A stretch of 64,000 nt of DNA from Robertkochia aurantiaca (lineage in GTDB: Bacteria > Bacteroidota > Bacteroidia > Flavobacteriales > Flavobacteriaceae): assembly GCF_020166495.1 (NCBI RefSeq), contig NZ_JAINZS010000002.1, positions 248,001-312,000 of the forward strand. The letters are read 5' to 3'. How positions within the stretch are numbered: the first letter of the stretch is position 1; every line of letters begins with the position of its first letter. Under the pieces are notes generated by a model. It was not told the origin of the DNA. It made no database searches and saw only the letters and a list, made by a program, of their open reading frames with translations. This document shows positions 990-52,363 of the stretch, piece after piece. Both the position numbers and the translations under genes were made by a program.

Positions 990-1625
990 GAGAATTGAGA
1001 ATTGAGAATAGAGCGGGATGCGTGGTGAAAAGGTCAGGTGGTCAGGTGGTCAGGTGGTCAGGTGGTCAGGTAGAAAATGATAAATTTTGGCTTAACCTTT
1101 ATAATTACTGCCGTTGCGAATCGCAGGATGCGTGATGCGTGATGCAGAAAATAAAAAATTTCCGGAAGATCAATCCTGAATTTTCAATGGTTGATCTTTT
1201 TATTTAAATAGAGTGTTGGGATTTCATCAAGGGTGAACATAACCACCCCGCCCAGCTTTCAGCAGGCCCACCTCTCTGGAAGGAGGGAAACGAAGTATTC
1301 GTTTAGAATCATATCTGGTAGTCTGTAAAACATCTATTTGATAACATGCATTACCCTCCCCTTTTTAAGGGGAGGTGCCTGGAAGGCGGAGGGGTTCTCG
1401 AGACTTTCAAATGAACCATCCGAAAATTTGTCCGTACCCCCCAATTACCTCCTTACCTACTTCCGTATTCACCCTTTCACCTGCTGACCCATATACCCAC
1501 GTACCCATTTACCTATTTACCCCCATACCCCCATACCCCCATACCCCCATACCCCCATACCCCCATACCCCCATACCCTCATACCCTCATACCTGCACAA
1601 CCGCATAACCATATAACTAACTTAT
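990..1625. repeat. Intergenic repeat module 1 (G-rich tract, palindromes, C-rich tract)
   Basis: No gene is credible here. From left to right: an 8-bp tandem repeat (GGTCAGGT, about 1029-1070); a core at 1071-1250 with two copies of a 7-bp GATGCGT unit and a terminator-like hairpin; palindromic GC-rich pieces around 1230-1280 and 1345-1395 (CCTCCCC...GGGGAGG); and a C-rich 8-bp tandem repeat (ACCCCCAT, about 1520-1590). The core is repeated almost word for word at 5875-6200, with about 17 copies of the 7-bp unit there. A proline-rich open frame across the C-rich tract is a repeat artefact. Confidence 0.85.
1166..1205 (+). terminator. Rho-independent terminator-like hairpin in repeat module 1
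   Basis: AAGATCAA (1166-1173) pairs with TTGATCTT (1191-1198) and is followed by a T-rich run on the plus strand. The same hairpin is present at 6084-6120 in module 3, so it belongs to the duplicated intergenic module. Confidence 0.5.
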
Positions 1626-1630
1626 TTTCA

Positions 1631-1638
1631 TATATTTA
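1631..1638 (+). promoter_or_regulatory. Putative -7 box of the DUF3604 gene
   Basis: TATATTTA fits the Bacteroidota -7 pattern TAnnTTTG with one mismatch and lies about 29 nt before the ATG at 1667. The segment CTTATTTTCATATATTTA is shared exactly with 3871-3888, upstream of the next gene. No clear -33 TTG is present. Confidence 0.45.
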
Positions 1639-1666
1639 CATTATAATCAACCAAAAAAAAGATCAT

Positions 1667-3529
1667 ATGAGAACCTTCGTATTTCTTCTCATCACTGCCC
1701 TGATCTTTTCTTGTAAATCTGACCAAAAAAATACAGACGCCGCTGAAACGTCAGTTGATTCCATATCGGTTGATGTGGCCTCAAATCCTTTAAAAGACGT
1801 GTATTTCGGAAACCTTCACGTGCATACTAAATGGTCTTTCGATGCCTATATTAACGGTGCCGCGACCGACCCTGATGGGGCATATCGGTGGGCAAAAGGG
1901 GAACAGATATCAGGAGGAGGTGATGGCACGCCGCTAAAAATAAAAGCTCCTTTAGACTGGTATGTTGTTTCAGATCACTCTGAATTTATGGGTTCTCTTC
2001 CATTAATGGAAGATGAAACCAGCCCTGTAAGTAAACATCCACTGGCAGCAGATATCACAGGAGATGATCCTGCAAAATCGTTCGAGGCCTATACCGAAAT
2101 CCTGGATATGATTTCAAGTGGCTCCAATGATTCCATTCTTGGTAATCCTGAGTTCCAAAAGACCATCTGGTCTGAAATATGTGAAATCGCCGATAGACAT
2201 TATGAGCCTGGTAATTTTACCACTTTTGCAGGATACGAATGGACTTCAAACCCCGATTGGCGAAATCTTCACCGAATTATCGTTTTTGAGGATACCAAAA
2301 AAGTCCCTGCTCAACCCTTTTCGGCCATTGATTCTGATGTGCCTGAGAAACTTTGGGAATGGATGGACAATCAGCGTGAGCAGGGAAATGAATTACTGGC
2401 TATACCTCACAATGGAAATGCGAGTGATGGTCTTATGTTTCCGCTGCAGGAATCTTATGGAGGCAGCAGCCTGAATGCAGGGTATGCTGAAACGAGAATG
2501 CGGAACGAACCTTTATATGAAATCACGCAGATAAAAGGAACCTCAGAAGTTCATCCTGTACTTAATCCTCAAGATGAGTTCGCCAACTTTGAATTATGGG
2601 ATTATACCCTGGAATCCAAAGCACTGGCACCAAAAAATAAAAAAGGAGGATATGCAAGAGACGCTCTTCTGAGAGGGATCGAACTACAGAAAGATCAGAA
2701 CGCTAACCCATTTAAAATGGGTTTTATCGGAGATTCAGATACACATAATTCAGCAGCTTCGATTGAAGAGGATAATTATACCGGTAAGTTTGGTTTCGAG
2801 AATGATCCGAAACATCGTTTAGATGGCCCTCCGGGAGTAAGTGAAGCAGGTGCTAAACAGGTTCGGGAATTCAGTTCAGGAGGTGTAGGTGCCATATGGG
2901 CTGAATCAAATACGAGAGAAGCCATTTTTGCAGCCATGAAGAGAAAGGAGACCTATGCCACATCAGGTCCAAGAATGAAAGTTCGATTTTTTGCAGGTTT
3001 CAATTATGATAAACAGATCTTAAATAGTGAGAATTGGCTGGAAACAGCCTATAGTAATGGAGTTCCCATGGGAGGTGACCTTTCTTCAGAACAAGGCGCA
3101 CAAGCCCCTGTACTCTTGATTCAGGCCATGAAAGAAACCGACGGTGCCAACCTTGACAGAATACAGGTCATTAAGGGATGGGTCGAAAACGGTTCCCCAC
3201 AGGAGAAGATTTTTAATGTGGCATGGTCTGGCGATCGTAGCCTCGATGATAACGGAGATTTGCCGGAGGTAGGGAATTCTGTAAATCTGGAAACTGGAGA
3301 GTATACCAATGATATAGGGGAAACGGAACTTTCAGTAGCTTGGACCGATCCTGACTTTGATGCTTCCCAACATGCCTTTTATTACGTCAGGGTTCTTCAA
3401 ATTCCCACTCCAAGGTGGTCGACATACGATGCGATTAAACTGGAGAGACCCATACCAGAGGGACTTCCAGCAACCATTCAGGAACGTGCCTGGACCAGCC
3501 CGATATGGTATGTCCCGAATGGGGAGTGA
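1667..3529 (+). CDS. DUF3604 domain-containing lipoprotein
   Basis: A 620-residue exported protein of unknown activity. The N-terminus is a lipoprotein signal (ITALIFSC, Cys16) followed by an acidic linker, so it is probably anchored in an outer or periplasmic membrane leaflet. The rest matches the DUF3604 family, which resembles PHP/metallohydrolase folds. Metal-ligand-like motifs are visible: NLHVHTKWSFDA near residue 50, VVSDHSEF near 103, AIPHNGN near 247 and GDSDTHN near 363. The ATG at 1667 follows a -7-like box. It stands alone between two repeat modules. Substrate is unknown; hydrolysis of a phosphate or other ester is a guess from the fold. Confidence 0.85.
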   Translation: MRTFVFLLITALIFSCKSDQKNTDAAETSVDSISVDVASNPLKDVYFGNLHVHTKWSFDAYINGAATDPDGAYRWAKGEQISGGGDGTPLKIKAPLDWYVVSDHSEFMGSLPLMEDETSPVSKHPLAADITGDDPAKSFEAYTEILDMISSGSNDSILGNPEFQKTIWSEICEIADRHYEPGNFTTFAGYEWTSNPDWRNLHRIIVFEDTKKVPAQPFSAIDSDVPEKLWEWMDNQREQGNELLAIPHNGNASDGLMFPLQESYGGSSLNAGYAETRMRNEPLYEITQIKGTSEVHPVLNPQDEFANFELWDYTLESKALAPKNKKGGYARDALLRGIELQKDQNANPFKMGFIGDSDTHNSAASIEEDNYTGKFGFENDPKHRLDGPPGVSEAGAKQVREFSSGGVGAIWAESNTREAIFAAMKRKETYATSGPRMKVRFFAGFNYDKQILNSENWLETAYSNGVPMGGDLSSEQGAQAPVLLIQAMKETDGANLDRIQVIKGWVENGSPQEKIFNVAWSGDRSLDDNGDLPEVGNSVNLETGEYTNDIGETELSVAWTDPDFDASQHAFYYVRVLQIPTPRWSTYDAIKLERPIPEGLPATIQERAWTSPIWYVPNGE

Positions 3530-3880
3530 TGTGGGATGCGTGGTGAAAAGGTCAGGTGGTCAGATAGTCAGGTAGTCAGGTGGTCAGGTGGTCAAAGAGT
3601 CAGAAGGCCAGGTAGTATTTCTTACCCACGTACCCATTTACCTTCGTACCCATTTACCTATTTACCTACATACCCTCATACCTGTATAACCCCATAACTT
3701 TTTTAAGTGAAATGGTGAAGTAGTCAGACAGTCAGGAAGTCGGGTTGTCAGATGGAACGTCTTTGCGAACCACATTCAATGGGTGAAGCAATCTTTCAAC
3801 TATTAGACTGGTAATAGATTTTGCACCTCCATACCCCCATACCCCCATAACCCCACACCTCCATAACACACTTATTTTCA
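3530..3880. repeat. Intergenic repeat module 2
   Basis: A degenerate relative of module 1. It starts right at the upstream stop codon with GGGATGCGTGGTGAAAAGG, which is also found at 1015-1033. GGTCAGGT-type repeats follow (3550-3620), then ACCCATTTACC-type C-rich repeats (3624-3690), a second G-rich patch (3714-3755) and a C-rich CCATACCCC tract (3828-3866). It ends at the promoter of the next gene. No gene is seen. Confidence 0.8.
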
Positions 3881-3888
3881 TATATTTA
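3881..3888 (+). promoter_or_regulatory. Putative -7 box of the gene at 3934
   Basis: TATATTTA lies within a segment shared with 1621-1638. It would place the transcription start near 3895, compatible with either the GTG at 3907 or the ATG at 3934. Confidence 0.4.
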
Positions 3889-3933
3889 TAACATAAAACC
3901 GATTCTGTGCCCCGGAATCACAAACGCTACCTG

Positions 3934-4977
3934 ATGGGGCATCGCATTTCTGAAGCAAGTTTTCTTTTATTAGTTGGTTTTTGGCTGATCTTTTCTGCTG
4001 CCAGCGCCCAGGGAACCATTAAGTTCGACAATGAAGCCTATCGTGAATATCGCGACAGCCTTCAGCGGATGGAATACAAGCATACCTTTCCCGTGCTGGG
4101 TGACAAAGCTTATGAACGGGGTTATGATATTCCTTTTCCATGGGGAGCCAGCTTTGTATTCTTTACACAACGGCAAGAGATCAATATCGACCGAATACTT
4201 TTGGGAGTCAATGGTGGGGAAATGGCAGATTTCAGCGATTTTATCGTTTTCGGACCAACCATTGCCACTACTTACGCTTATACCTTCAGACCCGATCTCT
4301 GGGTTTTGCCTTTTCTCAACCTCTATGCGATCGTTGGAGGTGGAACCACCCAAACCGAAGTAAATCTTCTAAGGCCTGTAGGCTTCCAAACCTCCCAGGA
4401 GCTGGGCGCCGGTTCATTTGGCCTGGGAGCTACCCTTACAGGTGCGGTGGGTCCGGTATGGCTGGCCTGGGATAATAACTATAACTGGGCCGATGTTGAG
4501 GCGGTGGTCGAACCCATACCAGCTTTCAATTCCAGTGTTCGCATCGGTCATAATATAGCCTCCCCTGTAAATCCACAGAGAAGTCTTTCTGTATGGGCCG
4601 GGGTCTTCTATCAATCGATTCAGAGTGATACCCGGGGAAGCATCCCGTTTAAAGATATTTTTCCCAATGCCGGCTCCGGTCAAACCATCGAGAGCCTGCG
4701 CAACTGGGCTCAGACCTTGCCTCCGCCTCAAAGGGTTATTGCCAACCAGATCATCAACCGGCTGGAACAGGGTGTTGGAGGTATTGACTTTGAGAACACC
4801 AGTATTGATTACTTTTTAGATAAAGAAGTAGCCGCTCCTTTCAATATGATCGTGGGGGCTCAATATCAATTCAATAAACACTGGATGTTGCGAACAGAAC
4901 TGGGGGTTTTCGGAAAAAGAAGTCAATTCCTCCTGAATCTGAACTATCGCTTTCAGGGGTTGAAAAAGAAATACTAA
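3934..4977 (+). CDS. Exported outer-membrane beta-barrel-like protein, unknown function
   Basis: A hypothetical protein with an N-terminal signal peptide (SFLLLVGFWLIFSAASA-Q) and a body rich in alternating aromatic/hydrophobic strands. It ends in a typical barrel terminal strand (SQFLLNLNYRFQGLKKKY), so it probably sits in the outer membrane. I do not recognise a family. I chose the ATG at 3934 (about 347 residues) because it gives a normal 25-residue signal. A GTG at 3907 in the same frame would add nine residues (MPRNHKRYL) and cannot be excluded. It is flanked by repeat module 2 and the PorT-like gene at 5089. Confidence 0.65.
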   Translation: MGHRISEASFLLLVGFWLIFSAASAQGTIKFDNEAYREYRDSLQRMEYKHTFPVLGDKAYERGYDIPFPWGASFVFFTQRQEINIDRILLGVNGGEMADFSDFIVFGPTIATTYAYTFRPDLWVLPFLNLYAIVGGGTTQTEVNLLRPVGFQTSQELGAGSFGLGATLTGAVGPVWLAWDNNYNWADVEAVVEPIPAFNSSVRIGHNIASPVNPQRSLSVWAGVFYQSIQSDTRGSIPFKDIFPNAGSGQTIESLRNWAQTLPPPQRVIANQIINRLEQGVGGIDFENTSIDYFLDKEVAAPFNMIVGAQYQFNKHWMLRTELGVFGKRSQFLLNLNYRFQGLKKKY

Positions 4978-5088
4978 AGCTAATTCCCGCGGGTTTTGCA
5001 ATACAGGATTTCTGATTTAATGTATCAGGACCAATCCATTAATAATCATTAAAAAAGGTGCGTACGGATTCCTAAATTTAACTGATAA

Positions 5089-5793
5089 ATGAAAAAACAA
5101 CTTTCAGTCATACTCTTTCTGCTGGTAATTTTTCCGGTACAATCACAAATACTGATGAGCCTGATCTTCGGAGATGATTTAAACTCTGAAAAGATGGCCT
5201 TTGGCATTCACCTGGACCAGGCATGGAATCAATATTCAGGACTTGAAGAAGGAAAGCCTCTCCGAACCTTTAATATGGGCTTATTCTTCACCCGAAAATT
5301 CGACGATCACTGGAAAGGAAATCTAATGATGCTGGCCAAATACAAAAAGGGGATATCGGAGCTATCTGCCTATGGTCTGGGTGATGATAACCTGGATGCA
5401 TCCTTTTCAGAAGCTCAGGTGTCAAGGGAAATAAACTACCTCAGTATTCCCGTAACCATACAATACATGGCAGACTTTGGTGGCTTTTTGGAAGCAGGTC
5501 CGCAACTGTCTTTCAGAACGAGGGCCCGGGATATTTTCACGGTTTCCGACGGAAAAGATCAGCTGGTCTATATAAACCGTATCGATGAAGAAGTCACCCG
5601 CTGGGATTTCGGCTTTGTTGTCGGCACCGGAATCTATTTAGGCCCTGAAAAACTCACCGCCGTGGGCTTCAGGTATCACGGCGGCTTTACCGATATCCTG
5701 AAAAATGAATCCGGGAACCAGGTTAACATGCAGTGGAGCATTTTTGTCCAGATCCCGATCGGAAGAGGGAAGATGAAGCCTGAGAGCCAGTGA
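5089..5793 (+). CDS. PorT-family-like outer-membrane beta-barrel protein
   Basis: A 234-residue small barrel. It has a signal peptide (KKQLSVILFLLVIFPVQSQ), then strands alternating with turns (FGIHLDQAWNQY, FLEAGPQLSFRTRA, DFGFVVGTGIYLG). It ends in a C-terminal strand NMQWSIFVQIPIGRGK. The layout resembles the outer membrane beta-barrel (PorT/OMP_b-brl_2) families common in Bacteroidota, whose members are mostly of unknown function. The stop at 5793 runs directly into the GGTCAGGT repeat of module 3. Confidence 0.7.
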   Translation: MKKQLSVILFLLVIFPVQSQILMSLIFGDDLNSEKMAFGIHLDQAWNQYSGLEEGKPLRTFNMGLFFTRKFDDHWKGNLMMLAKYKKGISELSAYGLGDDNLDASFSEAQVSREINYLSIPVTIQYMADFGGFLEAGPQLSFRTRARDIFTVSDGKDQLVYINRIDEEVTRWDFGFVVGTGIYLGPEKLTAVGFRYHGGFTDILKNESGNQVNMQWSIFVQIPIGRGKMKPESQ

Positions 5794-6625
5794 GGTAGTC
5801 AGGTAGTCAGGTGGTCAGGTGGTCAGGTGGTCAGGTGGTCAGGTGGTCAGGTGGTCAGGTGGTCAGGTGGTCAGGTAGAAAATGATACATTTTGGCTTAA
5901 CCTTTGTAATTACTGCCGTTGCGAATCGCAGGATGCGGGGATGCCTGATGCGTGATGCGTGATGCGTGATGCGTGATGCGTGATGCGTGATGCGTGATGC
6001 GTGATGCGTGATGCGTGATGCGTGATGCGTGATGCGTGATGCGTGATGCGTGATGCGTGATGCGGAAAATAAAAAATTTCCTGAAGATCAATTCTGAATT
6101 TTCAATGGTTGATCTTTTTATTTAAATAGAGTGTCGGGATTTCATTAAGGGTGAAGATAACCACCCCGCCCTGCTTTCAGCGGGCCCACCTCATTGGAAA
6201 GGAGGGAAGGACCGAGCGAATAAAAAAGGTCTTGCAGACCTTTTTAGCAAACCTGCCTATCGGCAGACAGGGTGGCCAGCTGGCGCAAGGGCGATAATGT
6301 TTCAGGTAAACTGGTAGGCAGATAACAAAATATTTAAAGGGTTATGAGACTTTGATTTTAAACAACCACCCCGCCCTGCTCTCGGCAGGGCACCCCTCCT
6401 TGGAAAGGAGGGGGTATCCTGGCTTTCAAATGAACCATCCGAAAATTTATCCGTATTCCCCGATTACCTACTTCCTATTCACCTTTTCACCTGCTGACCC
6501 GTATACCCATGTACCCATCTACCCATCTACCCATCTACCCATCTACCCATTTACCTGCTTACCTGCTTACCTATTTACCTGCTTACCTGCTTACCTGCTT
6601 ACCTCCACACCCCACAACTAACTAA
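5794..6625. repeat. Intergenic repeat module 3 (expanded copy of module 1)
   Basis: A long gene-free stretch with the order of module 1. It contains GGTCAGGT repeats (5795-5876, about nine copies), a core near-identical to 1071-1250 and an expanded array of about 17 GATGCGT units (5946-6063). A hairpin follows at 6084-6116, then palindromes around 6160-6200 and 6363-6415, and C-rich tracts (CATCTACC, GCTTACCT) at 6508-6605. A segment after the second palindrome (CTTTCAAATGAACCATCCG, from about 6423) is shared with 1406-1424. Frames encoding RITHHAS or YLFTCLPA repeats are artefacts. Confidence 0.85.
6084..6120 (+). terminator. Terminator-like hairpin in repeat module 3
   Basis: AAGATCAA (6084-6091) pairs with TTGATCTT (6109-6116), followed by a T-rich run. 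It is a copy of the hairpin at 1166 and may end transcripts reading out of the gene at 5089. Confidence 0.5.
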
Positions 6626-6651
6626 TATTTATATATAAATCAACTCACAAC

Positions 6652-7472
6652 ATGAAATCAGGTTCGACTTTAAAAAACAGCTTCTTGTCTTATCGCTTAT
6701 TTGTCTCGGCTTCTGCTCTGTTCAGGCACAGGAAGATGCTCCTCCTGCCAATGCAGCTGATGACCTGGCCAAGCAACTGCTGAATCCGGTAGCAAGCCTG
6801 ATCAGCGTTCCTTTTCAATTCAATTATGACTTTGGTTTTGATCCCTATGACGGAAGTCGTCTCCTGTTGAATGTTCAACCCGTTTTACCTATCAGTATCA
6901 GCGAAAACTGGAATCTTATAGGAAGAGTGATCTTGCCTGTCATATCACAGAACGATGTGTTTAGCCTCGATAATCAGTTCGGACTAGGGGATGCTGTTAT
7001 CAGCGGATTCTTTTCACCTAAGGAACCGACTGCCGGCGGACTCATATGGGGTGCCGGTCCTGTGTTACTGGTTCCTACGGCCACAGATGAGTTGCTGGGG
7101 GCCGAAAAATTCGGAATAGGTCCGACCGCTGTAGCTTTACAGCAGGCTGGCAGCATGACCTTTGGGGCGTTGGTAAATCATATATGGTCGTTTGCGGGAG
7201 ATGACAACAGAGGTGATATCAACACTACCTTCGTTCAGCCTTTTATTGCCAAGAATTTTGCTGGGGGATGGGCCGTGGCTTTTAATACCGAACTCAGCCA
7301 GGATTGGGATAACGGTAATACCAACGGGAACATCAACCTGGTGGGATCTAAAGTGGTTACCCTGGGAGATCAAATGGCCCAGGTATTTTTAGGACCGCGT
7401 TTTCCTTATGGCAATGCGAATACGGCCGACTTTGGAGTGCGATTCGGACTGACCTTGTTGTTTCCTAAGTGA
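6652..7472 (+). CDS. Exported porin/transporter-like protein with a frameshift at the start
   Basis: The ATG at 6652 opens a frame that soon fails (MKSGSTLKNSFL...). The real protein is in the next frame: KQLLVLSLICLGFCSVQAQ is a clear signal peptide, followed by about 250 residues with barrel-like strands to FGVRFGLTLLFPK at 7472. That body resembles the MetA-pathway/transporter barrel family (PF13557-like). The frames would join as MKSGSTLKKQLL... if the A6 run at 6672-6677 were A7, or by a -1 slip at T TTA AAA AAC. No usable start exists in the main frame before 6864-6867. This is phase variation, recoding, decay or a sequencing error. Confidence 0.65.
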
Positions 7473-7600
7473 GATGGGGTGATTAGGGATTGGTGATTAA
7501 GGATTAGGGATTGGTTATTTGTTATTTGTTATTAGGGATTGGGTATTAGTTATACATAACTCCTGCCTCGCGATAGTCTGGATAACCCTGCACAGATTCC
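7473..7600. repeat. G-rich simple-repeat tail after the gene at 6652
   Basis: Degenerate repeats of GGGATTGG, GATTAGGGATT and TTATTTGTTATT follow the stop codon directly. The G-rich strand is the sense strand of the upstream gene. No gene is seen. Confidence 0.7.
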
Positions 7601-7700
7601 ACTCATAAAACTTTGAATACCCACTCAGGCCTTCGGCCAGCTCCCCTGAAAGGAGGAGCAGAGAGGATTTCTAATAAAAGTCAATTGAATCGCATCCCTT
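7600..7700. repeat. Dispersed palindromic intergenic element, copy 1
   Basis: This contains TCAGGCCTTCGGCCAGCTCC followed by a GGAGGAGCAGA segment and a tail ending in GCATCCC. A close copy with the same flanks is at 51965-52070. The core AGGCCTTCGGCC is self-complementary. Confidence 0.75.
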
Positions 7701-7734
7701 AAAATAAAAACCCTTCACTGTTAGCTTTCCCAAT

Positions 7735-8060
7735 AGCCATCGGAAGCCGATAGCTTTCAATTCACATCATAACCGTATAACCGCATAACCGTAAATTATT
7801 GAGGATTGTTTACACTCAAGAGATTTGCGTTCGCTGTTAGCCCTTAGCTCAAACTCCCTGCATCACTGTATCACCGAATAACACATCCCATATGTCTGCT
7901 TCGACCTCCGATACTTCGGAGCAGCATGACAAGAGCTTAAACTCCGTATCACTGCATCCCTGCTGGCAGGCAGGACCGCATACCCTCATACCTTCATACC
8001 TTCATACCTTCATACCTTCATACCTTCATACCTTCATACCTTCATACCCTCATAACTCTA
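7735..8060. repeat. C-rich simple-repeat tract facing the ftsY stop
   Basis: ATAACCG-type repeats (7768-7795), a GGCAGGCAGG palindromic half (7970-7979), and a run of eight or so copies of the 9-bp unit CTTCATACC (7985-8050). On the minus strand this is a G-rich tail following the ftsY stop codon. Open frames through it are artefacts. Confidence 0.75.
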
Positions 8061-24269: not shown

Positions 24270-24490
24270 GTTGGATGGTTATTCGGTTATGTAGTGATGC
24301 AGTTATGCAGTTATGCGGTTATGCGGTCCTGCCTGCCGGTAGGCAGGTATGCGGTTATGCCAGGTTAGGGAAATAAAAAACTATCATCACTGAAAATCGT
24401 AATGCGTACCACGGTTTATAAAACCCATGGTATCCAGAAGGAAATTAAAAAATCACCTATTCCCTATTCTCTACTCTCCATTCCCTACTC
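24270..24490. repeat. Simple-repeat region between convergent genes
   Basis: After the HAD stop comes a G-rich GGTTATGC/AGTTATGC repeat (24273-24360) with the palindrome CCTGCCTGCCGGTAGGCAGG (24329-24348). After a short unique stretch comes a C-rich TCTCTACTCCC/ATTCCCTA repeat (24460-24500) that runs into the end of the minus-strand gene. No gene is seen. Confidence 0.75.
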
Positions 24491-37264: not shown

Positions 37265-37272
37265 TATCTTTG
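37265..37272 (+). promoter_or_regulatory. Putative -7 box of the AraC-type gene
   Basis: TATCTTTG is a full match to TAnnTTTG, about 31 nt before the ATG at 37303. An in-frame TTG at 37270 overlaps this box, which argues against it as the start. Confidence 0.5.
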
Positions 37273-37302
37273 ATTGAACTCAAAGGAGTAATTTTACGGG
37301 AA

Positions 37303-38208
37303 ATGGCAGCAGAAGGAAATATGCAGAATAAGAAACCGACATTAGAGCTTATACAGCCTTCATTCGGCAGTTCTTTTTCATTGATGACCTATGATAAGAA
37401 CAAGAATGACAATGCCCGAAACTGGCATTTCCACCCGGAGGTGGAGCTGGTTTACATAAATGGTGGTTCAGGGAAGCGACAAATCGGTAGTCATATATCT
37501 TATTTCACCGATGGAGATCTGATCATGATAGGTTCCAATCTACCGCATTGTGGGTTCACAGATAAATACACGGGTAATAAAAACGAAACCGTCGTACAGC
37601 TGCCACCTGATTTTCTTGGAGAAGACCTCATCAACAGACCGGAAATGAAAAATATAAGATATCTGTTCGAACGATCTAAGAGCGGACTGGCTTTTACCGG
37701 GGTGACCAAAAGAAAGGTGGGCGAAAAAATACAACTACTACAGCAGAAGCCCGGCTTCGAACGTTTTATCGGTATACTCGAAATACTGAATACACTGCAG
37801 CTATCGGAGGAATACCAGATTCTGAATGCCGGAGGATTTCATATTCAGGCGGAGATTCAGGATAATGACCGTATCAACACTATTTTCAACCACGTGCGAA
37901 CAAATTTCAAAGAATCTATCAGCCTGGATGAAATATCAGATATAGCCGGAATGACTGTTCCTTCCTTTTGCAGGTATTTCAAAAAAATGACCGGGAAGAC
38001 CTTTACAAACTTCGTCAACGAATACCGGTTAGTACATGCCTCAACCCTGCTGGCTGAAAAACCCATGAGCATCACCGAGATATGCTATGAAAGTGGTTTT
38101 AACAACTTTTCTCATTTTAATAAATCATTTAAGGCCTTTACCGGAAAATCTCCTTCGGCCTACAGAAACGAATTTAAAAAGGTGATCAGCAACAGTGAAA
38201 ATCAATAA
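37303..38208 (+). CDS. AraC-family regulator with cupin sensor domain
   Basis: About 301 residues. The N-terminal cupin/AraC-binding domain (NARNWHFHPEVELVYINGGSGKRQIG, FTDGDLIMIGSNLPHCGF) has His residues that could bind metal or ligand. The C-terminal double HTH is ESISLDEISDIAGMTVPSFCRYFKKMTGKTFTNFVNEYRLVHA...ICYESGFNNFSHFNKSFKAFTG. It overlaps the start of alkB by 14 nt, so the two are probably co-expressed. Its ligand is unknown. Confidence 0.9.
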   Translation: MAAEGNMQNKKPTLELIQPSFGSSFSLMTYDKNKNDNARNWHFHPEVELVYINGGSGKRQIGSHISYFTDGDLIMIGSNLPHCGFTDKYTGNKNETVVQLPPDFLGEDLINRPEMKNIRYLFERSKSGLAFTGVTKRKVGEKIQLLQQKPGFERFIGILEILNTLQLSEEYQILNAGGFHIQAEIQDNDRINTIFNHVRTNFKESISLDEISDIAGMTVPSFCRYFKKMTGKTFTNFVNEYRLVHASTLLAEKPMSITEICYESGFNNFSHFNKSFKAFTGKSPSAYRNEFKKVISNSENQ

Positions 38209-38797
38209 AAACATCCCGGCAGAAAGATTACCGTTACAGCAATCGGAGATTTACTATATACCAGAATTCCTTTCAAAAAAAGAGGCTGATCATTACCTGG
38301 GGTATTTTCTGCATGAGACTGAATGGCGACAGGATGAGATCACCCTTTTCGGGAAAACCATGCTTCAGCCGAGGCTTACTGCGCTCTACGGAAATAATGA
38401 GAAAACCTATACCTATTCCAATATAAAGATGCACCCCCTCCCCTTTCCTGCCGGGTTTGAGCAGCTGAAAGATAGAATTGACCTCTTTTGCAATGAAGAA
38501 TTTACGACCTGCTTACTCAACCTGTATCGCCATGGAAATGACAGTATGGGTTGGCATTCTGATGATGAACCCGAACTGGGCCTTGAACCGGTAATAGCCT
38601 CCCTTAGTCTCGGCGCAGAAAGAATTTTTCATTTCAGGCATAAGCTGTATAAAGAAAAAAAATACCGCCTTCAACTGGGTCATGGCAGCCTGTTATTGAT
38701 GAAGGGAAAGACCCAGGAATATTGGCAACATCAATTACCCAAGACCAAAAAAAATAAAGAAGCCCGCGTAAACCTGACCTTCCGCATCATCAAATAA
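38195..38797 (+). CDS. alkB: Alpha-ketoglutarate-dependent dioxygenase AlkB-like
   Basis: A 200-residue Fe(II)/2-oxoglutarate oxygenase of the AlkB family, which repairs alkylated bases by oxidative demethylation. Metal ligands are in DSMGWHSDDEPELG (HxD) and the distal His/Arg region is in YWQHQLPKTKKNKEARVNLTFR. The substrate region LTALYGNNEKTYTYSN is typical. The start is GTG at 38195, inside the end of the AraC gene, suggesting coupled translation. Directly after its stop comes the first hairpin of the non-coding region. Confidence 0.9.
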   Translation: MKINKNIPAERLPLQQSEIYYIPEFLSKKEADHYLGYFLHETEWRQDEITLFGKTMLQPRLTALYGNNEKTYTYSNIKMHPLPFPAGFEQLKDRIDLFCNEEFTTCLLNLYRHGNDSMGWHSDDEPELGLEPVIASLSLGAERIFHFRHKLYKEKKYRLQLGHGSLLLMKGKTQEYWQHQLPKTKKNKEARVNLTFRIIK

Positions 38798-38798
38798 A

Positions 38799-38964
38799 AA
38801 AGTCGCATCCATTTTACAGGATGCGACCACCAAACCAACTAACTCAAATATGAAAATCAATGCAATAATGAAGATACATGGCTATCTGCTATTCGCTTAA
38901 ACATGTATCGTCGTAAAAACCGTATATGAAATTACGACCTCAAAAAAGCGGTGCAAAAGTACTG
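38799..38964 (-). ncRNA. Candidate small RNA A with promoter and terminator
   Basis: A minus-strand promoter (TTG, 21 nt, TACTTTTG) lies at about 38988-38957. A predicted RNA of about 150 nt follows. It has a hairpin GTCGTAA/TTACGAC (about 38915-38937), a GATACATG/CATGTATC hairpin (about 38874-38912), a linker GAGTTAGTTGGTTTGG and a 9-bp terminator stem, GTCGCATCC (38802-38810) with GGATGCGAC (38819-38827), then TTTTTT. An embedded 15-codon ORF is not supported. Confidence 0.5.
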
Positions 38965-39029
38965 CTTTTGTTGTATTCAAAGCAATAAAAAACCGGCATA
39001 TTTTTGCCGTTTTTATATAGGACCAAAAG

Positions 39030-39190
39030 AAAAGAGGCCGTTAAGAACGACCTCTTGCAACCAACCAAAATTATGAAAAATCAAAAAACCAAATCTATTT
39101 GGATCTAAACTCCTGCCAGGACCTTTCGTCCTTTCTGAAACAGGTAAACCCAATATGATTACGTCTACGCAGGCAAAGATACTGAGAAAG
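39030..39190 (-). ncRNA. Candidate small RNA B with terminator
   Basis: A -7-like TATCTTTG on the minus strand (near 39176-39183, weak -33) precedes about 140 nt. It contains a hairpin AGGAC/GTCCT, a T-rich run, the linker TTTTGGTTGGTTGC and a terminator stem, AAGAGGCCGTT with AACGACCTCTT (39032-39056), followed by TCTTTT. Confidence 0.4.
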
Positions 39191-39351
39191 GGCTGCCTGA
39201 AACTTGTATAAAAACAGGGAAGAATTGTTTAAAAACACACCTAACACTTTGTAAAACAGATATATGACTATTTTTTAAGGAGACGTATTAAGAAACAAAA
39301 GTGTACAGGAATGATGTCGCCTGATGCCGCTCTTATCTGATTACAAACAAA

Positions 39352-39378
39352 AAAAAAGGAGTCCTGAGACTCCTTTTG
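39352..39378 (-). terminator. Terminator hairpin C in the gene-free region
   Basis: AAAGGAGTC (39355-39363) pairs perfectly with GACTCCTTT (39368-39376), with T8 downstream on the minus strand. No protein gene precedes it, so a non-coding transcript is implied. Confidence 0.6.
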
Positions 39379-39534
39379 AACACTAATAATAACCATCATC
39401 CGGTGGTGGCTTATTCTCTTATTTCCGTTCATACATGAATGAAGTTATATCAACTGGGCACCGGACCCTGTAATTATCTGCGAATGGTTTGTACTATAGG
39501 GCTCCGGGTTAAAACGCGAAGACACCCTCCGCTT

Positions 39535-39715
39535 TGTTTAAAAAACAAAGACCATCACTATTAGTAACGGCCTTTGTTCATAACCAACCAACCAAAAAAA
39601 TCTTTGTCATCTCAGCCTGTAGCCTGACTGCTTCATTAAGAAGCGAAAGTATCTGCATTACCAGGTGAGCATTATATTTTACCTTAAACCTTTGCTGATC
39701 GATTCGATTGAAGTG
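39535..39715 (-). ncRNA. Diverged array element D
   Basis: On the minus strand an AT-rich start and a short hairpin (GCTTC/GAAGC) lead to the linker TTGGTTGGTTGGTTATG. A terminator-like stem follows, AACAAAG(G)CC with GG(T)CTTTGTT (39543-39578), then a T-run. It is a diverged neighbour of the 169-bp units. Confidence 0.35.
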
Positions 39716-40560
39716 GTATAAAGGGACCACCGGAAAGGCGGCCCGCATTATTAACCAACCAACTTAAAAAATCAAAAATCAATCAATCTTCTGGCAGGCT
39801 TCTCTTTTAGGGACGGGAAGCCATGCCCTCATTAACATAGGTTAAGCTTTATATTTTTTCTGTATGACCGATCTGATCAAAGCGGTATAAAGGGGCCACC
39901 GGGGAGGCGGCCCGCATTAGTAACCAACCAACTTAAAAAATCAAAAATCAATCAATCTTCTGGCAGGCTTCTCTTTTAGGGGCGGGAAGCCATGCCCTCA
40001 TTAACATAGGTTAAGCTTTATATTTTTTCTGTATGACCGATCTGATCAAAGCGGTATAAAGGGGCCACCGGGAAGGCGGCCCACATTAGTAACCAACCAA
40101 CTTAAAAAATCAAAAATCAATCAATCTTATGGCAGGCTTCACTTTTAGGGGCGGGAAGCCATGCCCTCATTAACATAGGTTAAGCTTTATATTTTTTCTG
40201 TATGACCGATTTGATTAAAGCGGTATAAAGGGGCCACCGGGGAGGCGGCCCACATTAGTAACCAACCAACTTAAAAAATCAAAAATCAATCAATCTTCTG
40301 GCAGGCTTCTCTTTTAGGAGCGGGAAGCCATGCCCTCTTTAACATAGGTTAAGCTTTATATTTTTTCTGTATGACCGATCTGATCAAAGCGGTATAAAGG
40401 GGCCACCGGGGAGGCGGCCCACATTAGTAACCAACCAACTTAAAAAATCAATCAATCTTATGGCAGGCTTCACTTTTAGGGGCGGGAAGCCATGCCGTCA
40501 TTAACATAGGTTAAGCTATATGCTTTATCTGTATCCTGTTTATGTTCGATTCTATAGAGG
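39716..40560 (-). repeat. Five tandem 169-bp units, each ending in a minus-strand terminator
   Basis: Units start at 39716, 39885, 40054, 40223 and 40392, each exactly 169 bp and differing at only a few positions, except the last, which is rearranged internally at the same length. On the minus strand each unit has an A/T-rich start, a stem GGCATGGCTTC/GAAGCCTGCC around a GCCCCT loop, and a GATTGATTGATTTTTGA stretch. Then come TTAAGTTGGTTGGTTA and a terminator-like stem GGGCCGCC/GGTGGCCC followed by TTTATAC. No long ORF exists on either strand. Function unknown; tandem small-RNA copies are my reading. Confidence 0.85.
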
Positions 40561-40730
40561 ATTATAAAGGGGCCACCGGAAAGGCGGCCCGCATTATTAA
40601 CCAACCAACTTAAAAAATCAAAATCAATCGAAAATCATATAACGCTTTCAATTATGAGGGGCTGAAAGCATCCACTTGTCCAAACAGGATCAGTTATATT
40701 TTTATGCAGAGCCATCTGTACTCTTGCTCT
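40561..40730 (-). ncRNA. Diverged sixth unit of the array
   Basis: The terminator stem and linker match the 169-bp units, but the upstream stem is GCTTTC/GAAAGC instead of GGCTTC/GAAGCC, with two paired positions changed together and the GCCCCT loop kept. The compensatory pattern argues for conserved RNA structure rather than coding. Confidence 0.5.
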
Positions 40731-40855
40731 ATTTGCTTCATTATCAGTATATCTAAGAACATTTTGTTATGCATGCATAATATTTCAACTATCGTGCCAA
40801 ACTCATTTTTGAGTTATATATCGAATAAAAATGCATTTCAACTTCAATCAGGCTC

Positions 40856-41069
40856 AAAAAAAGAGCAAGGCTTTCAGAGCCTCACTCTTTCCTGATCCTT
40901 AATCATTAACAGCATCTCTGTTAGGGTCAGTAATACTGTTTTAGCAATAGGTCAAGTTGTATCTTGTAAATGAACGCTTTGGCTTTTAAGATGAACCGTA
41001 ACTTTTTATCGTTCAACGGTTTATTTTCAAATCCGGTGACAAAGATACTATGCAGGCATAATTGACCAA
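40856..41069 (-). ncRNA. Candidate small RNA with textbook promoter and terminator
   Basis: The minus strand has TTG (41069-41067), 19 nt, TATCTTTG (41047-41040), an exact Bacteroidota consensus promoter. About 175 nt downstream is a hairpin AAAGAG-GGCT / AGCC-CTCTTT (40859-40890) followed by T7. No ORF of useful size lies between. Predicted RNA is about 41034 to 40857. Confidence 0.6.
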
Positions 41070-41260
41070 ATATTTTTGCCATATTTCGATTAATTTTAAC
41101 ACTCTAAAGCGCTGTTAATCAATTATATAGAAATTAATCGATTACAAATTGAGATAAATACTCAACTATAATCAGAAACCGACTGTTAAGACAATCCTCT
41201 GATTTTGTGAAAATTAGCATTTTGTCGAAGATACTTTACCATTGGTCTCTTTGAAGTAAG

Positions 41261-41286
41261 AAAAGGCCGCACGAATGCGGCCTTTT
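41261..41286 (-). terminator. Terminator of the membrane protein gene at 41345
   Basis: AAAAGGCCGCA (41261-41271) pairs perfectly with TGCGGCCTTTT (41276-41286), followed by TTTTC on the minus strand. It is preceded by TTTTAAGTTGGTTGGT, the linker also found in the array. Confidence 0.85.
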
Positions 41287-41344
41287 ACCAACCAACTTAA
41301 AATCAAATGAACATAGCAGGCGATCAAAACGTTAGTTTAGGGTG

Positions 41345-41803
41345 CTAACGTTTCTTCTCACCAGTCGTAGGCACATTTAATAGCGTTCTATATGATAATC
41401 TCTTGTGATATCTGAACTGTTGCGCCAGCAACACTGCTGCCAGGGCTATAAAAAAGTGAATGATCATTTCGGGCGTATCCCATCCGTCAAGGTATATATA
41501 GGCGCTGATCAGAAAATAGGCAAAGCTGAGATACAGCAGTGTTTTTTCCCGTAAACCCAATATTACCATAATACCGGTAAAAACCTTTACGAATGGCAGC
41601 ATCGAAATGATAAAAAAGAACATCTGATAATCAAAAATCTCCGCCTGCTTATAAACCTGCATCACCTTCAGGTGATAATCGGCATAATTAAGTGATGAAT
41701 ACAACCCGCTTACCAATAACACCAAGCCAAATAACAGGCATGACCAGGTCAGTATTTTATCGGGGCGAACACGCATTAATCTCTTGACTATCAATTCATG
41801 CAA
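41345..41803 (-). CDS. DoxX-like four-helix membrane protein
   Basis: A 152-residue inner-membrane protein with four hydrophobic segments (ILTWSCLLFGLVLLVSGLY, FFFIISMLPFVKVFTGIMVI, LLYLSFAYFLISAYIYL, IIHFFIALAAVLLA) and a basic C-terminus. The topology is DoxX-like, but I see no motif that fixes a function. It is divergent from the AraC gene at 41970, separated by 166 bp, and may be its target (inference). Confidence 0.65.
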   Translation of the reverse strand: MHELIVKRLMRVRPDKILTWSCLLFGLVLLVSGLYSSLNYADYHLKVMQVYKQAEIFDYQMFFFIISMLPFVKVFTGIMVILGLREKTLLYLSFAYFLISAYIYLDGWDTPEMIIHFFIALAAVLLAQQFRYHKRLSYRTLLNVPTTGEKKR

Positions 41804-41969
41804 AGATAAATGAGAGGGAGGAACTGGCAGTTGTAAAAAAGAATGATTAATTTACCGCGTTGACGAACCTGACATCAATTTTGTTCACAAAGCCCTTATT
41901 CAGAGAACAAAATCCTTTCCAGCCCCGGTCTTCAGATGACACCCTGCCTGTTACTAAAAACGAAAACGC

Positions 41970-42839
41970 ATGTTCAGACTTAATTTACATGAAACGTACA
42001 TCGTCAAAAAGATTGACCTGGAGCCCGGCGAAGAGATACCTGAACACAAACAGAACTTCTTCGAACTGGTATTTATAGAAAAAGGTGAAGGTTTTCATAT
42101 AATAAACAATGCCAGAGTGCCTTACAAAAAGAGAGATGTTTTTCTGCTGGCTCCTGAAGATGAACATTTCGGGGAAGTTTTAACCCCTACCACTGTTACG
42201 CTGATCAGGTTTACCGAACTTTTCTTTTCAGGAAAATCTTCTCTTCCCGACCGCAGCTACTGGTTACGGCATATTGAACATATTTTACACCACCCTAATC
42301 TGTTGCCCGGAGTAGCCGTTAAAGATCCCGACGACCTGAAGATCGTCTGGCTCACTAAAGACCTTCTATGTAAAGAGCATATTGAAGAGCAGGAGTTTCA
42401 CATGAACATCATCAGCAACAATATTTCGACCATACTCAGTATCATCGCCAGAAATATCATCAAGAACTACGCTTTGGAAAAAGGTGTAGAGCCCACGGTA
42501 TATATCAATAAGGCTGACGAGGTGCTCTCGTATATTCGTCAGAATATCTACGATACCGAACGGATGAAGATCGAACACCTGGCTGATAAGTTTCATATGT
42601 CACCGAATTACATCAATTCGTTCTTCAAAAAAGAAACCGGCGAAACCATCCGACAGTATATTCTCAATTACAAACTCATGGTTACCGAATTCAGGTTAAA
42701 ATACACCAACAGCAGTATTTCAGAAATAGCACACCAGGTAGGTTTTACAGATGAGAGTCATTTATCGAAGGCTTTTAAAAAGAAAAACAAGATGACCCCC
42801 AACGAGTTTCGGAAACAGTATTCTCCCTACGAGATCTGA
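41970..42839 (+). CDS. AraC-family regulator with cupin domain
   Basis: 289 residues. The N-terminal cupin part (EEIPEHKQNFFELVFIEKGEGFHIINNARVPYKKRDVFLLAPEDEH) is followed by a helical dimerisation region and the double HTH (MKIEHLADKFHMSPNYINSFFKKETGETIRQYILNYKLMV...ISEIAHQVGFTDESHLSKAFKKKNKMTPNEFR). It is divergent from the membrane protein gene at 41803 and is the second cupin-AraC regulator flanking the gene-free array. Effector unknown. Confidence 0.88.
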   Translation: MFRLNLHETYIVKKIDLEPGEEIPEHKQNFFELVFIEKGEGFHIINNARVPYKKRDVFLLAPEDEHFGEVLTPTTVTLIRFTELFFSGKSSLPDRSYWLRHIEHILHHPNLLPGVAVKDPDDLKIVWLTKDLLCKEHIEEQEFHMNIISNNISTILSIIARNIIKNYALEKGVEPTVYINKADEVLSYIRQNIYDTERMKIEHLADKFHMSPNYINSFFKKETGETIRQYILNYKLMVTEFRLKYTNSSISEIAHQVGFTDESHLSKAFKKKNKMTPNEFRKQYSPYEI

Positions 42840-51709: not shown

Positions 51710-51715
51710 GCCAGA

Positions 51716-51870
51716 CAGGTAAGCAGGTAGACAGGTAAGCAGGTAGACAGGTAGACAGGTAGACAGGTAGACAGGTAAGCAGGTAGACAGGTAAGCAGGT
51801 AGACAGGTAAGCAGGTAGACAGGTAAGCAGGTAGACAGGTAGACAGGCAGACAGGAAAGCAGGTAATCTG
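51716..51870. repeat. CAGGTAGA/CAGGTAAG 8-bp tandem repeat
   Basis: About 18 copies of an 8-bp unit alternating CAGGTAGA and CAGGTAAG begin 6 nt after the DUF192 stop. The sense strand is purine- and G-rich. Minus-strand frames encoding CLPVYLST repeats are artefacts. Confidence 0.9.
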
Positions 51871-52355
51871 GACGACAAATAAAAGCGAATAACAGCAGTA
51901 CAATCCTTTAGACTAGAACCAACCCGTCTTGCCGATGGTAAGGAGCTCACTGAATAGATTCTACTAATAAAACATTGAATACCCCCTCAGGCCTTCGGCC
52001 AGCTCCCCCTGGAAGGAGGAGCAGAAGGGATTTCTGTTTAAGTGAATTTATCTGCATCCCTGAATATCTCCATTCCTTTCTACTTCTGACGGTAGTATAA
52101 AACGAAGGTAAGATCCTTCGTCCCGAGGCTTCGGGACTCTGGATGACTTTAAAGGTGAGTTGGTGAAGAGGTGAAGAAATGCCGATTCTTTTCCCAGAAA
52201 AAACCGTTCACTCTTAGCTGTTAGCCGTTAGCATAAATTCCCCGTATCACTGCATACCTGCCTGCCGGCAGGCAGGACTGCATAACTGTATAACCCCATA
52301 ACTCTTTAACTCCATAACCCCATAACCCCATAACCTCATAACCTCATAACCTCAT
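51870..52355. repeat. Palindromic element copy 2 and C-rich tail facing secDF
   Basis: A copy of the 7600-7700 element lies at 51965-52070 (TCAGGCCTTCGGCCAGCTCC core). After unique sequence come the perfect palindrome CCTGCCTGCCGGCAGGCAGG (52257-52276) and ATAACCCC/CATAACCT repeats (52280-52357) up to the secDF terminator. On the minus strand these are a G-rich tail of secDF. No gene is seen. Confidence 0.8.
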
Positions 52356-52363
52356 AACAAAAA

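Follow-up and report, generated by a model that had tools for sequence, protein, structure and literature searches.

The interval between alkB and a gene for a small, probably membrane, protein (below, the membrane gene) in the marine bacterium Robertkochia aurantiaca (Flavobacteriaceae) is probably a cluster of genus-specific paralogous (sibling) sRNA genes, whose products would pair in trans through their loops and would be co-regulated with the membrane gene. The interval was analyzed in its window, that is, the whole stretch of 64,000 nucleotides, and in a set of five Robertkochia genomes (G000-G004), among which G000 (3.43 Mb; its cluster is denoted W) is the window's own. A reading made from the sequence only had described this region as free of genes and packed with minus-strand terminators behind T/G-rich linkers, and had offered either an array of paralogous small RNAs or decoy mRNA tails as explanation. 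The first proposal gains support from a cluster that is syntenic in all five genomes, from a shared promoter and a conserved core and structure, from two copies outside the training set that carry most of the parts, and from negative Rfam and ORF results. Decoy mRNA tails could account at most for unit 1, where sRNA and the end of the membrane gene overlap. We consider sibling sRNAs that are confined to the genus and act via C-rich loops the most likely reading, and gene regulation their likely job.

The units follow a common plan, comprising a 5' CUUAWCCUA motif, a hairpin with a C-rich loop, a U/G-rich linker and an intrinsic terminator, and several carry a promoter of the Bacteroidota type. 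Some classes are without the CUUAWCCUA motif and the C-rich loop, and the linker is degenerate or absent in some units. An own promoter, an intrinsic terminator and related copies, which are the general marks of sibling sRNAs, were found together for part of the units. The features of the interval are collected in Table 1. Beyond what had been read earlier, these include a 169-bp tandem array, a first unit overlapping the 3' end of the membrane gene, and promoters that are evident in some units only. The array, in which one class was amplified to six units in the window's species, has copies with 91% matches and a period that is not a multiple of 3.

Table 1. Features of the putative sRNA cluster and its neighbors (positions in the window)
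Feature	Position	Strand	Remarks
alkB	38,195-38,797	+	borders interval on one side
Membrane-gene promoter	41801..41839	-	TTTTTAC-N24-TATCTTTG; same box as sRNAs; 19.8 bits
Gene for small, probably membrane, helical protein	41345..41776	-	fast-evolving; no Pfam match
Unit W1, putative 3'UTR-type sRNA	41261..41377	-	orthologous in 5/5 species
W1 parts	hairpin 41328-41352; linker about 41286-41308; terminator 41261-41286	-	hairpin loop CACCCUAAA
Unit W2	40856..41047	-	-7 box TATCTTTG at 41040-41047; CUUGACCUA motif; without linker
W2 hairpins	40908-40940; terminator 40856-40888	-	loop of first hairpin ACCCUAA
Unit Wa6, first array unit	40563..40721	-	C-rich-loop hairpin, linker; core 40632-40701
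Wa6 weak-tail hairpin	40563-40590	-	
Palindrome TTATGCATGCATAA	40767-40780		upstream of Wa6, which is without a clear -7 box
Tandem array, units Wa1-Wa6	39711..40629	-	169-bp period, 5.4 copies
Wa5-Wa1 cores	40454-40521, 40293-40360, 40123-40191, 39955-40022, 39786-39853	-	
Wa5-Wa1 hairpins	40393-40420, 40224-40251, 40055-40082, 39886-39913, 39717-39744	-	
Unit Wb	39540..39641	-	linker about 39580-39600; terminator 39540-39577; no evident promoter
Unit Wc	39349..39431	-	terminator 39349-39377; without linker; no evident promoter
Unit W3	39025..39212	-	promoter box 39174-39212 (31.1 bits); hairpins
W3 tail	linker about 39059-39075; terminator 39025-39056	-	
Extra terminator-like hairpin, between W3 and W4	38984..39009	-	
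Unit W4	38795..38961	-	-7 box TACTTTTG at 38954-38961; linker about 38833-38845
W4 terminator	38795-38828	-	extends to alkB stop
AraC-family regulator	41970..42839	+	divergent from membrane gene; syntenic in 5/5 species

When the minus strand between 38,795 and 41,377 was searched with patterns typed from the sequence, 13 terminator-like hairpins were counted, in agreement with the minimum of ten that had been claimed; six of their tails (one for each array unit) are a weak CTTTATA, and the other seven are T-rich. The linkers said to precede many of the hairpins were also present: ten GUUGGUU-type linkers of the GTTGGTTGG kind lie on this strand, nine of them found by the pattern GTT[AG]GTT[GT]G and the tenth (TTTTGGTTGGTTGC, in unit W3) read directly from the sequence. 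A finder of hairpins followed by T-tracts, applied to the gap, returned 8 terminators on the minus strand and 2 on the plus strand, compared with 0-3 and 0-1, respectively, in 12 first-order Markov shuffles; 6 of the 8 minus-strand sites are among the 13 hairpins, and those at 41,137 and 38,872 are outside the list. A generic terminator scanner also detected 8 sites (2.4 +/- 1.6 in shuffles), but these were divided 4 per strand, so that an excess but no strand bias is seen with this scanner. In the whole window, the linker complement AACCAACYAA occurred at 29 sites when one mismatch was allowed, with 9.6 expected.

Most of the dispersed copies share a promoter of the form TTTWTAC-N24-TAnnTTTG, which is also found ahead of the membrane gene, and is of this special type there in three of the five species. 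In the five genomes, the pattern TTTWTACN{22,25}TANNTTTG gave 43 matches, with 17 for the reversed control. Matches with exactly N24 numbered 27, of which 21 are part of the system (G000, 4 of 5; G001, 4 of 4; G004, 6 of 6; G003, 5 of 6; and G002, 2 of 6, where three of the misses were left uninspected). A further 16 matches had other spacers, and the 12 of these that were read by eye all lie outside the system. Eleven of the 21 system promoters had served to derive the pattern and are therefore not independent of it, and the other ten came from the search itself. Three of these ten belong to the membrane gene (in G000, G001 and G003) and seven to sRNA loci, among which G004 C1:684059, G004 C2:322976 and G003 C66:87541 had been listed by no earlier search. 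No box match was found for the membrane gene in G002 and G004. A matrix made from 20 promoters outside the window scored only two sites above 8 bits on both strands of the 64 kb, and these were the promoters of unit W3 and of the membrane gene. In units W2 and W4 a -7 box is present but no upstream box is clear, and no evident promoter was found for Wb, Wc or the array units. The membrane gene itself probably starts at the ATG at 41,776, because the listed TTG at 41,803 precedes the point at which the -7 box of the promoter ends.

The shared box raises the possibility that an activator, perhaps the adjacent AraC-family protein, would act at it to co-induce the membrane gene and the sRNAs; this regulator is a candidate on account of its position. 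Two AraC-family regulators (37270-38208 and 41970-42839) flank the block of alkB, cluster and membrane gene in all five species. A palindrome, ATGCATGCAT, was seen within the spacer of several sRNA promoters (loci L083, L084 and L085) as well as upstream of Wa6, and may be a second regulator site.

The RNAs of the array would arise by read-through and processing, because these units have weak terminators and no evident promoter of their own. The same observations could be taken further, to a single transcript that reads through from the membrane gene and is processed into all the units, in the manner of ccaF1-CcsR1-4, and the overlap of unit 1 with the 3' end of the membrane gene would suit such a polycistronic precursor. 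In the alphaproteobacterial CcsR1-4/cuckoo RNAs (CIN1), as far as the available part of the source describes them, a gene for a small DUF1127 RNA-binding protein is followed by tandem homologous sRNAs, and a single precursor is cut by RNase E (PMC10253847). This is the nearest arrangement that we found, and Robertkochia resembles it in having a small-protein gene that adjoins tandem homologous sRNAs, but differs from it, to the extent that CIN1 is described there, in the helical, probably membrane, protein, in its several promoters and terminators, and in its motifs (PMC10253847). An adjacent DUF1127 protein was not found, the neighbor being a helical protein of about 143 aa that has no match in Pfam. 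Strong T-tract terminators end W1 and W2, W3 has its own box promoter, and W2 and W4 have their own -7 boxes, all of which speak against one precursor for the whole cluster, and we regard this explanation as rather unlikely.

A shared core, the sequence CUU[AG][AU]CCU[AG] (CUGAUCCUG in Wa6) followed by the C-rich-loop hairpin, is found in class-2 units, in the array and in most of the dispersed copies. When loop letters were fixed and the arms shuffled, a C-run within a loop closed by at least 5 pairs was found in 20 of 21 selected units, with 4.2 expected; units and motifs were chosen by hand, which favors this result, and near-identical array copies were excluded except for Wa2. The dispersed copy at G003 C66:91934, which has box promoter, linker and terminator but is without the CUU[AG][AU]CCU[AG] motif, was also excluded. 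The stems around the loops vary: among the 20 units, each position over the first nine pairs shows between 3 and 6 standard pair types, and one pair type is dominant at positions 3 and 4 (13 and 14 of 20). Unit 1, which in the window overlaps the stop codon of the membrane gene, shows the same division across species, in that all five share the octamer CCCUAAAC and the stretch UAUGUUCAUUUGAUUUU without change and differ in the flanking stem letters. Predicted folds place CCCUAAA of unit 1 in a hairpin loop in four of the five species, and in the unit of G004 (G004_1) the C-run is partly paired. The loops of different classes are not alike (CCCCCCUU, CCCCUAAA and CCCUAC). C-rich loops in tandem hairpins are a property of the CcsR/cuckoo RNAs as well, where the loop is CCUCCUCCC; this loop was absent among the 20 listed C-rich loops. 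By eye, 14 of the 30 cluster units have no C-rich loop, and a single mechanism may therefore not cover all of them.

An outer stem was also considered in the eight class-A copies, where 97.5% of cells were paired (22.5-60% in slid controls) and 2 of 5 pairs were changed on both sides. Since its covariation score was reached by 45 of 500 shuffles, the covariation is supportive rather than decisive. RNAalifold did not predict the outer stem on class A, and gave instead a 5' hairpin, CUUAUC/GAUAAG, which is a possible alternative fold and whose covariation was no higher than that of shuffles.

As to how the RNAs might act, we favor a mechanism in which each class would use its C-rich loop in trans to pair with G-rich sites in mRNAs, with the linker-terminator tail serving stability or a shared helper. 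Two points favor class-specific pairing: unit 1 keeps its loop octamer fixed across species on a stem that is free, and GsrN of Caulobacter works in a like manner (PMC5869019). GsrN has, in the part of the paper available, a 5' C-rich loop that is the most conserved part of the RNA and base-pairs to a G-tract of the katG leader; the likeness is one of proposed mode of action, by description, and gsrN differs in being a single gene, with no tandem cluster mentioned there (PMC5869019). More tentatively still, the whole could be a modular system of the genus, in which one regulatory promoter drives the membrane gene together with clustered and dispersed RNAs, and a shared tail of linker and terminator is combined with exchangeable hairpins of free stem sequence and class-specific C-loop seeds, the array tuning dosage, and which would represent a young, diversifying family.

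The main rival on how the RNAs act is that they are sponges, whose many C-rich loops titrate a cytosine-binding protein. CsrB and RsmY RNAs titrate CsrA through GGA loops, and the Robertkochia units likewise present a short motif in apical loops, in many copies and on stems of differing sequence, with a tandem array that increases the dosage. The invariance of the whole unit-1 octamer in five species is, however, beyond the needs of a generic CCC site, the class-specific loops suggest class-specific partners, and proteins with RRM_1 (PF00076), the one RNA-binding family searched for, were found in none of the five Robertkochia genomes, with Bacteroides ihuae positive as control. We therefore judge a protein sponge improbable, and retain pairing with mRNAs as the preferred mode of action.

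Candidate targets were sought among 215 sampled genes, and the mean energies of loop, 5' motif and linker against the translation starts were no better than those of shuffles. A role of the linker as an antisense seed to starts with AACCAAC was unsupported, 15 of 25 shuffled linkers being as low or lower, and AACCAAC did not occur in the 40 nt upstream of the starts of these genes. The difference between start and coding energies of the linker was below that of all 25 shuffles in the same 215 genes. The pattern AACCAACN{1,18}ATGA was 2.4-2.8-fold more frequent than its reversed control in the 5 genomes, a ratio to be read with the caveats that the backgrounds of ATGA and AGTA may differ and that sRNA loci are among the matches. 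SusC start regions were rejected as targets, with 10 of 41 matches over the family cut-off and no linker-complement match seen by eye in the leaders of 30 loci.

The cluster has kept its place in the genus. Orthologues of alkB and the membrane gene flank the same interval in all five genomes, the window's own included, and the interval sits within a longer syntenic block. Identity to the window in the other four species is 49-50% for alkB and 23-28% for the membrane protein, and the linker patterns found in their clusters keep to the same strand with respect to the membrane gene. By eye, 30 units were delimited in the five clusters (W, 12; G001, 6; G002, 4; G003, 3; G004, 5). A core model (R1) was built from 13 sequences as a sequence-only model without base pairs, because MAFFT fails to align the variable stems. 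R1 gave 19 matches in the five genomes (G000, 8; G001, 3; G002, 1; G003, 2; G004, 5). Besides the 13 training sequences, these are four close copies of training sequences and two loci that are new, at G004:C1:636128 (55 bits) and G001:C6:710042 (29.9 bits). A C-loop hairpin, a terminator and a -7 box are present at each of the new loci, with a degenerate linker (a single GGTT, or none). Neither locus was matched by the strict box pattern, and by eye box variants (TTTTGTAC and ATTTTAC) stand 24 nt above their -7 boxes.

Outside the genus, matches were few. The core model R1 matched 2 of 249 Flavobacteriaceae genomes (235 genera), both of them Robertkochia, in a search with stricter filters at which weak homologues could be lost. 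With the array DNA as the query, 3 of 40 genomes were matched in a mixed set of relatives, all Robertkochia, and the linker 19-mer was found in 9 stretches of a genome collection of 84,980 species, 5 in Robertkochia and 4 in single MAG records outside the genus. The units did not turn out to be a known Rfam element, as there were no matches to Rfam 15 at the gathering score in the window or in 14 loci, and the sub-threshold matches (the best, rimP, with 25.8 of 47 bits) look like chance. Flavo-1 is an Rfam family and was included in this search, so that the Robertkochia window and loci differ from it in having no Rfam match. Both Flavo-1 and Rfp18 are described, in the part of the source available, as noncoding RNAs that are likewise from Flavobacteriaceae (PMC9723704). 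The tandem array and the dispersed copies would also be expected of a DNA-level repeat or MITE-like mobile element without RNA function, but promoter, terminator and stem pairing persist in most dispersed copies despite much difference in sequence, and the cluster is syntenic, which makes such an element very improbable.

Protein coding was rejected as a general explanation. No credible ORF had been seen in the gap, and this observation holds, with the longest ORF no more than 63 aa and none of the five of at least 50 aa convincingly conserved; in tblastn of these five against 12 loci, the best match had an E value of 0.013 over 21 aa and lay in a promoter region. A frame of unit 1 that ends in CYVHLIF is opened by ATG solely in G001 and G004, and has no ATG in W, G002 and G003. 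In the former two (loci L079 and L082, respectively), unit 1 contains a 19-codon ATG frame ending in SCYVHLIF behind a GGAGG, and there unit 1 may be a dual-function RNA. The neighboring membrane protein is predicted to be helical (mean pLDDT 79.6), and had no PDB match at an E value of 0.001 or better. That small plus-strand genes have the AACCAACCAACTTAAAAAATCAATTATGAA complement as their 5' leader or start region, as its A-rich look with an ATG might suggest, is scarcely credible given the excess of finder terminators and the box promoters on the minus strand and the lack of conservation of the sole plus-strand ORF of at least 50 aa.

Most of what is known of post-transcriptional control in Bacteroidota comes from Bacteroides. 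Within the phylum, the nearest concept is the FopS/GibS family of Bacteroides thetaiotaomicron, an analogue with many paralogous sRNAs, comprising intergenic copies and one derived from a 3'UTR, in which, according to the available part of the source, FopS RNAs of ∼65-70 nt act via an R1' seed at the 5' end with the RRM_1 protein RbpB (PMC11697453). Like these, the Robertkochia units form a multicopy family of paralogues with promoters of the sigma-ABfr type (here, TAnnTTTG boxes), and include one 3'UTR-type unit beside intergenic ones; unlike FopS, as described there, they are clustered or in tandem and have a C-rich loop in about half of the cluster units (PMC11697453). Among the matches listed in a full-text search of one collection, papers on Robertkochia had no RNA topic by title, and among those listed for multicopy, flavobacterial or C-rich-loop sRNAs, no title described a Robertkochia sRNA family. 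The genus, without a detectable RRM_1 partner of the FopS type, offers in its compact syntenic cluster, with recognizable box, clear orthologues and tandem expansion, a testable model of the origin of an sRNA family, which bears on how such families share a promoter and diversify their seeds.

Some minor observations were made in the course of the analysis. Around position 1783 of locus L090 (G000 C2:485283) is a further short unit, which has a -7 box, a hairpin, a linker and a terminator and is absent from the R1 matches; G001 and G004 contain its 26-nt linker complement unchanged. Directly behind an sRNA terminator at locus L146 (G003 C66) is a GAAGCTTTAGCGAAGGAGGATCTC-type repeat in tandem copies. 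Finally, the window contains many short tandem arrays (1032-8054, 24277-24327 and 51713-52358) with units of 7-8 bp (GGTCAGGT, TACCCCCA, GATGCGT and AGACAGGT), which are unusual-looking for a bacterial chromosome.
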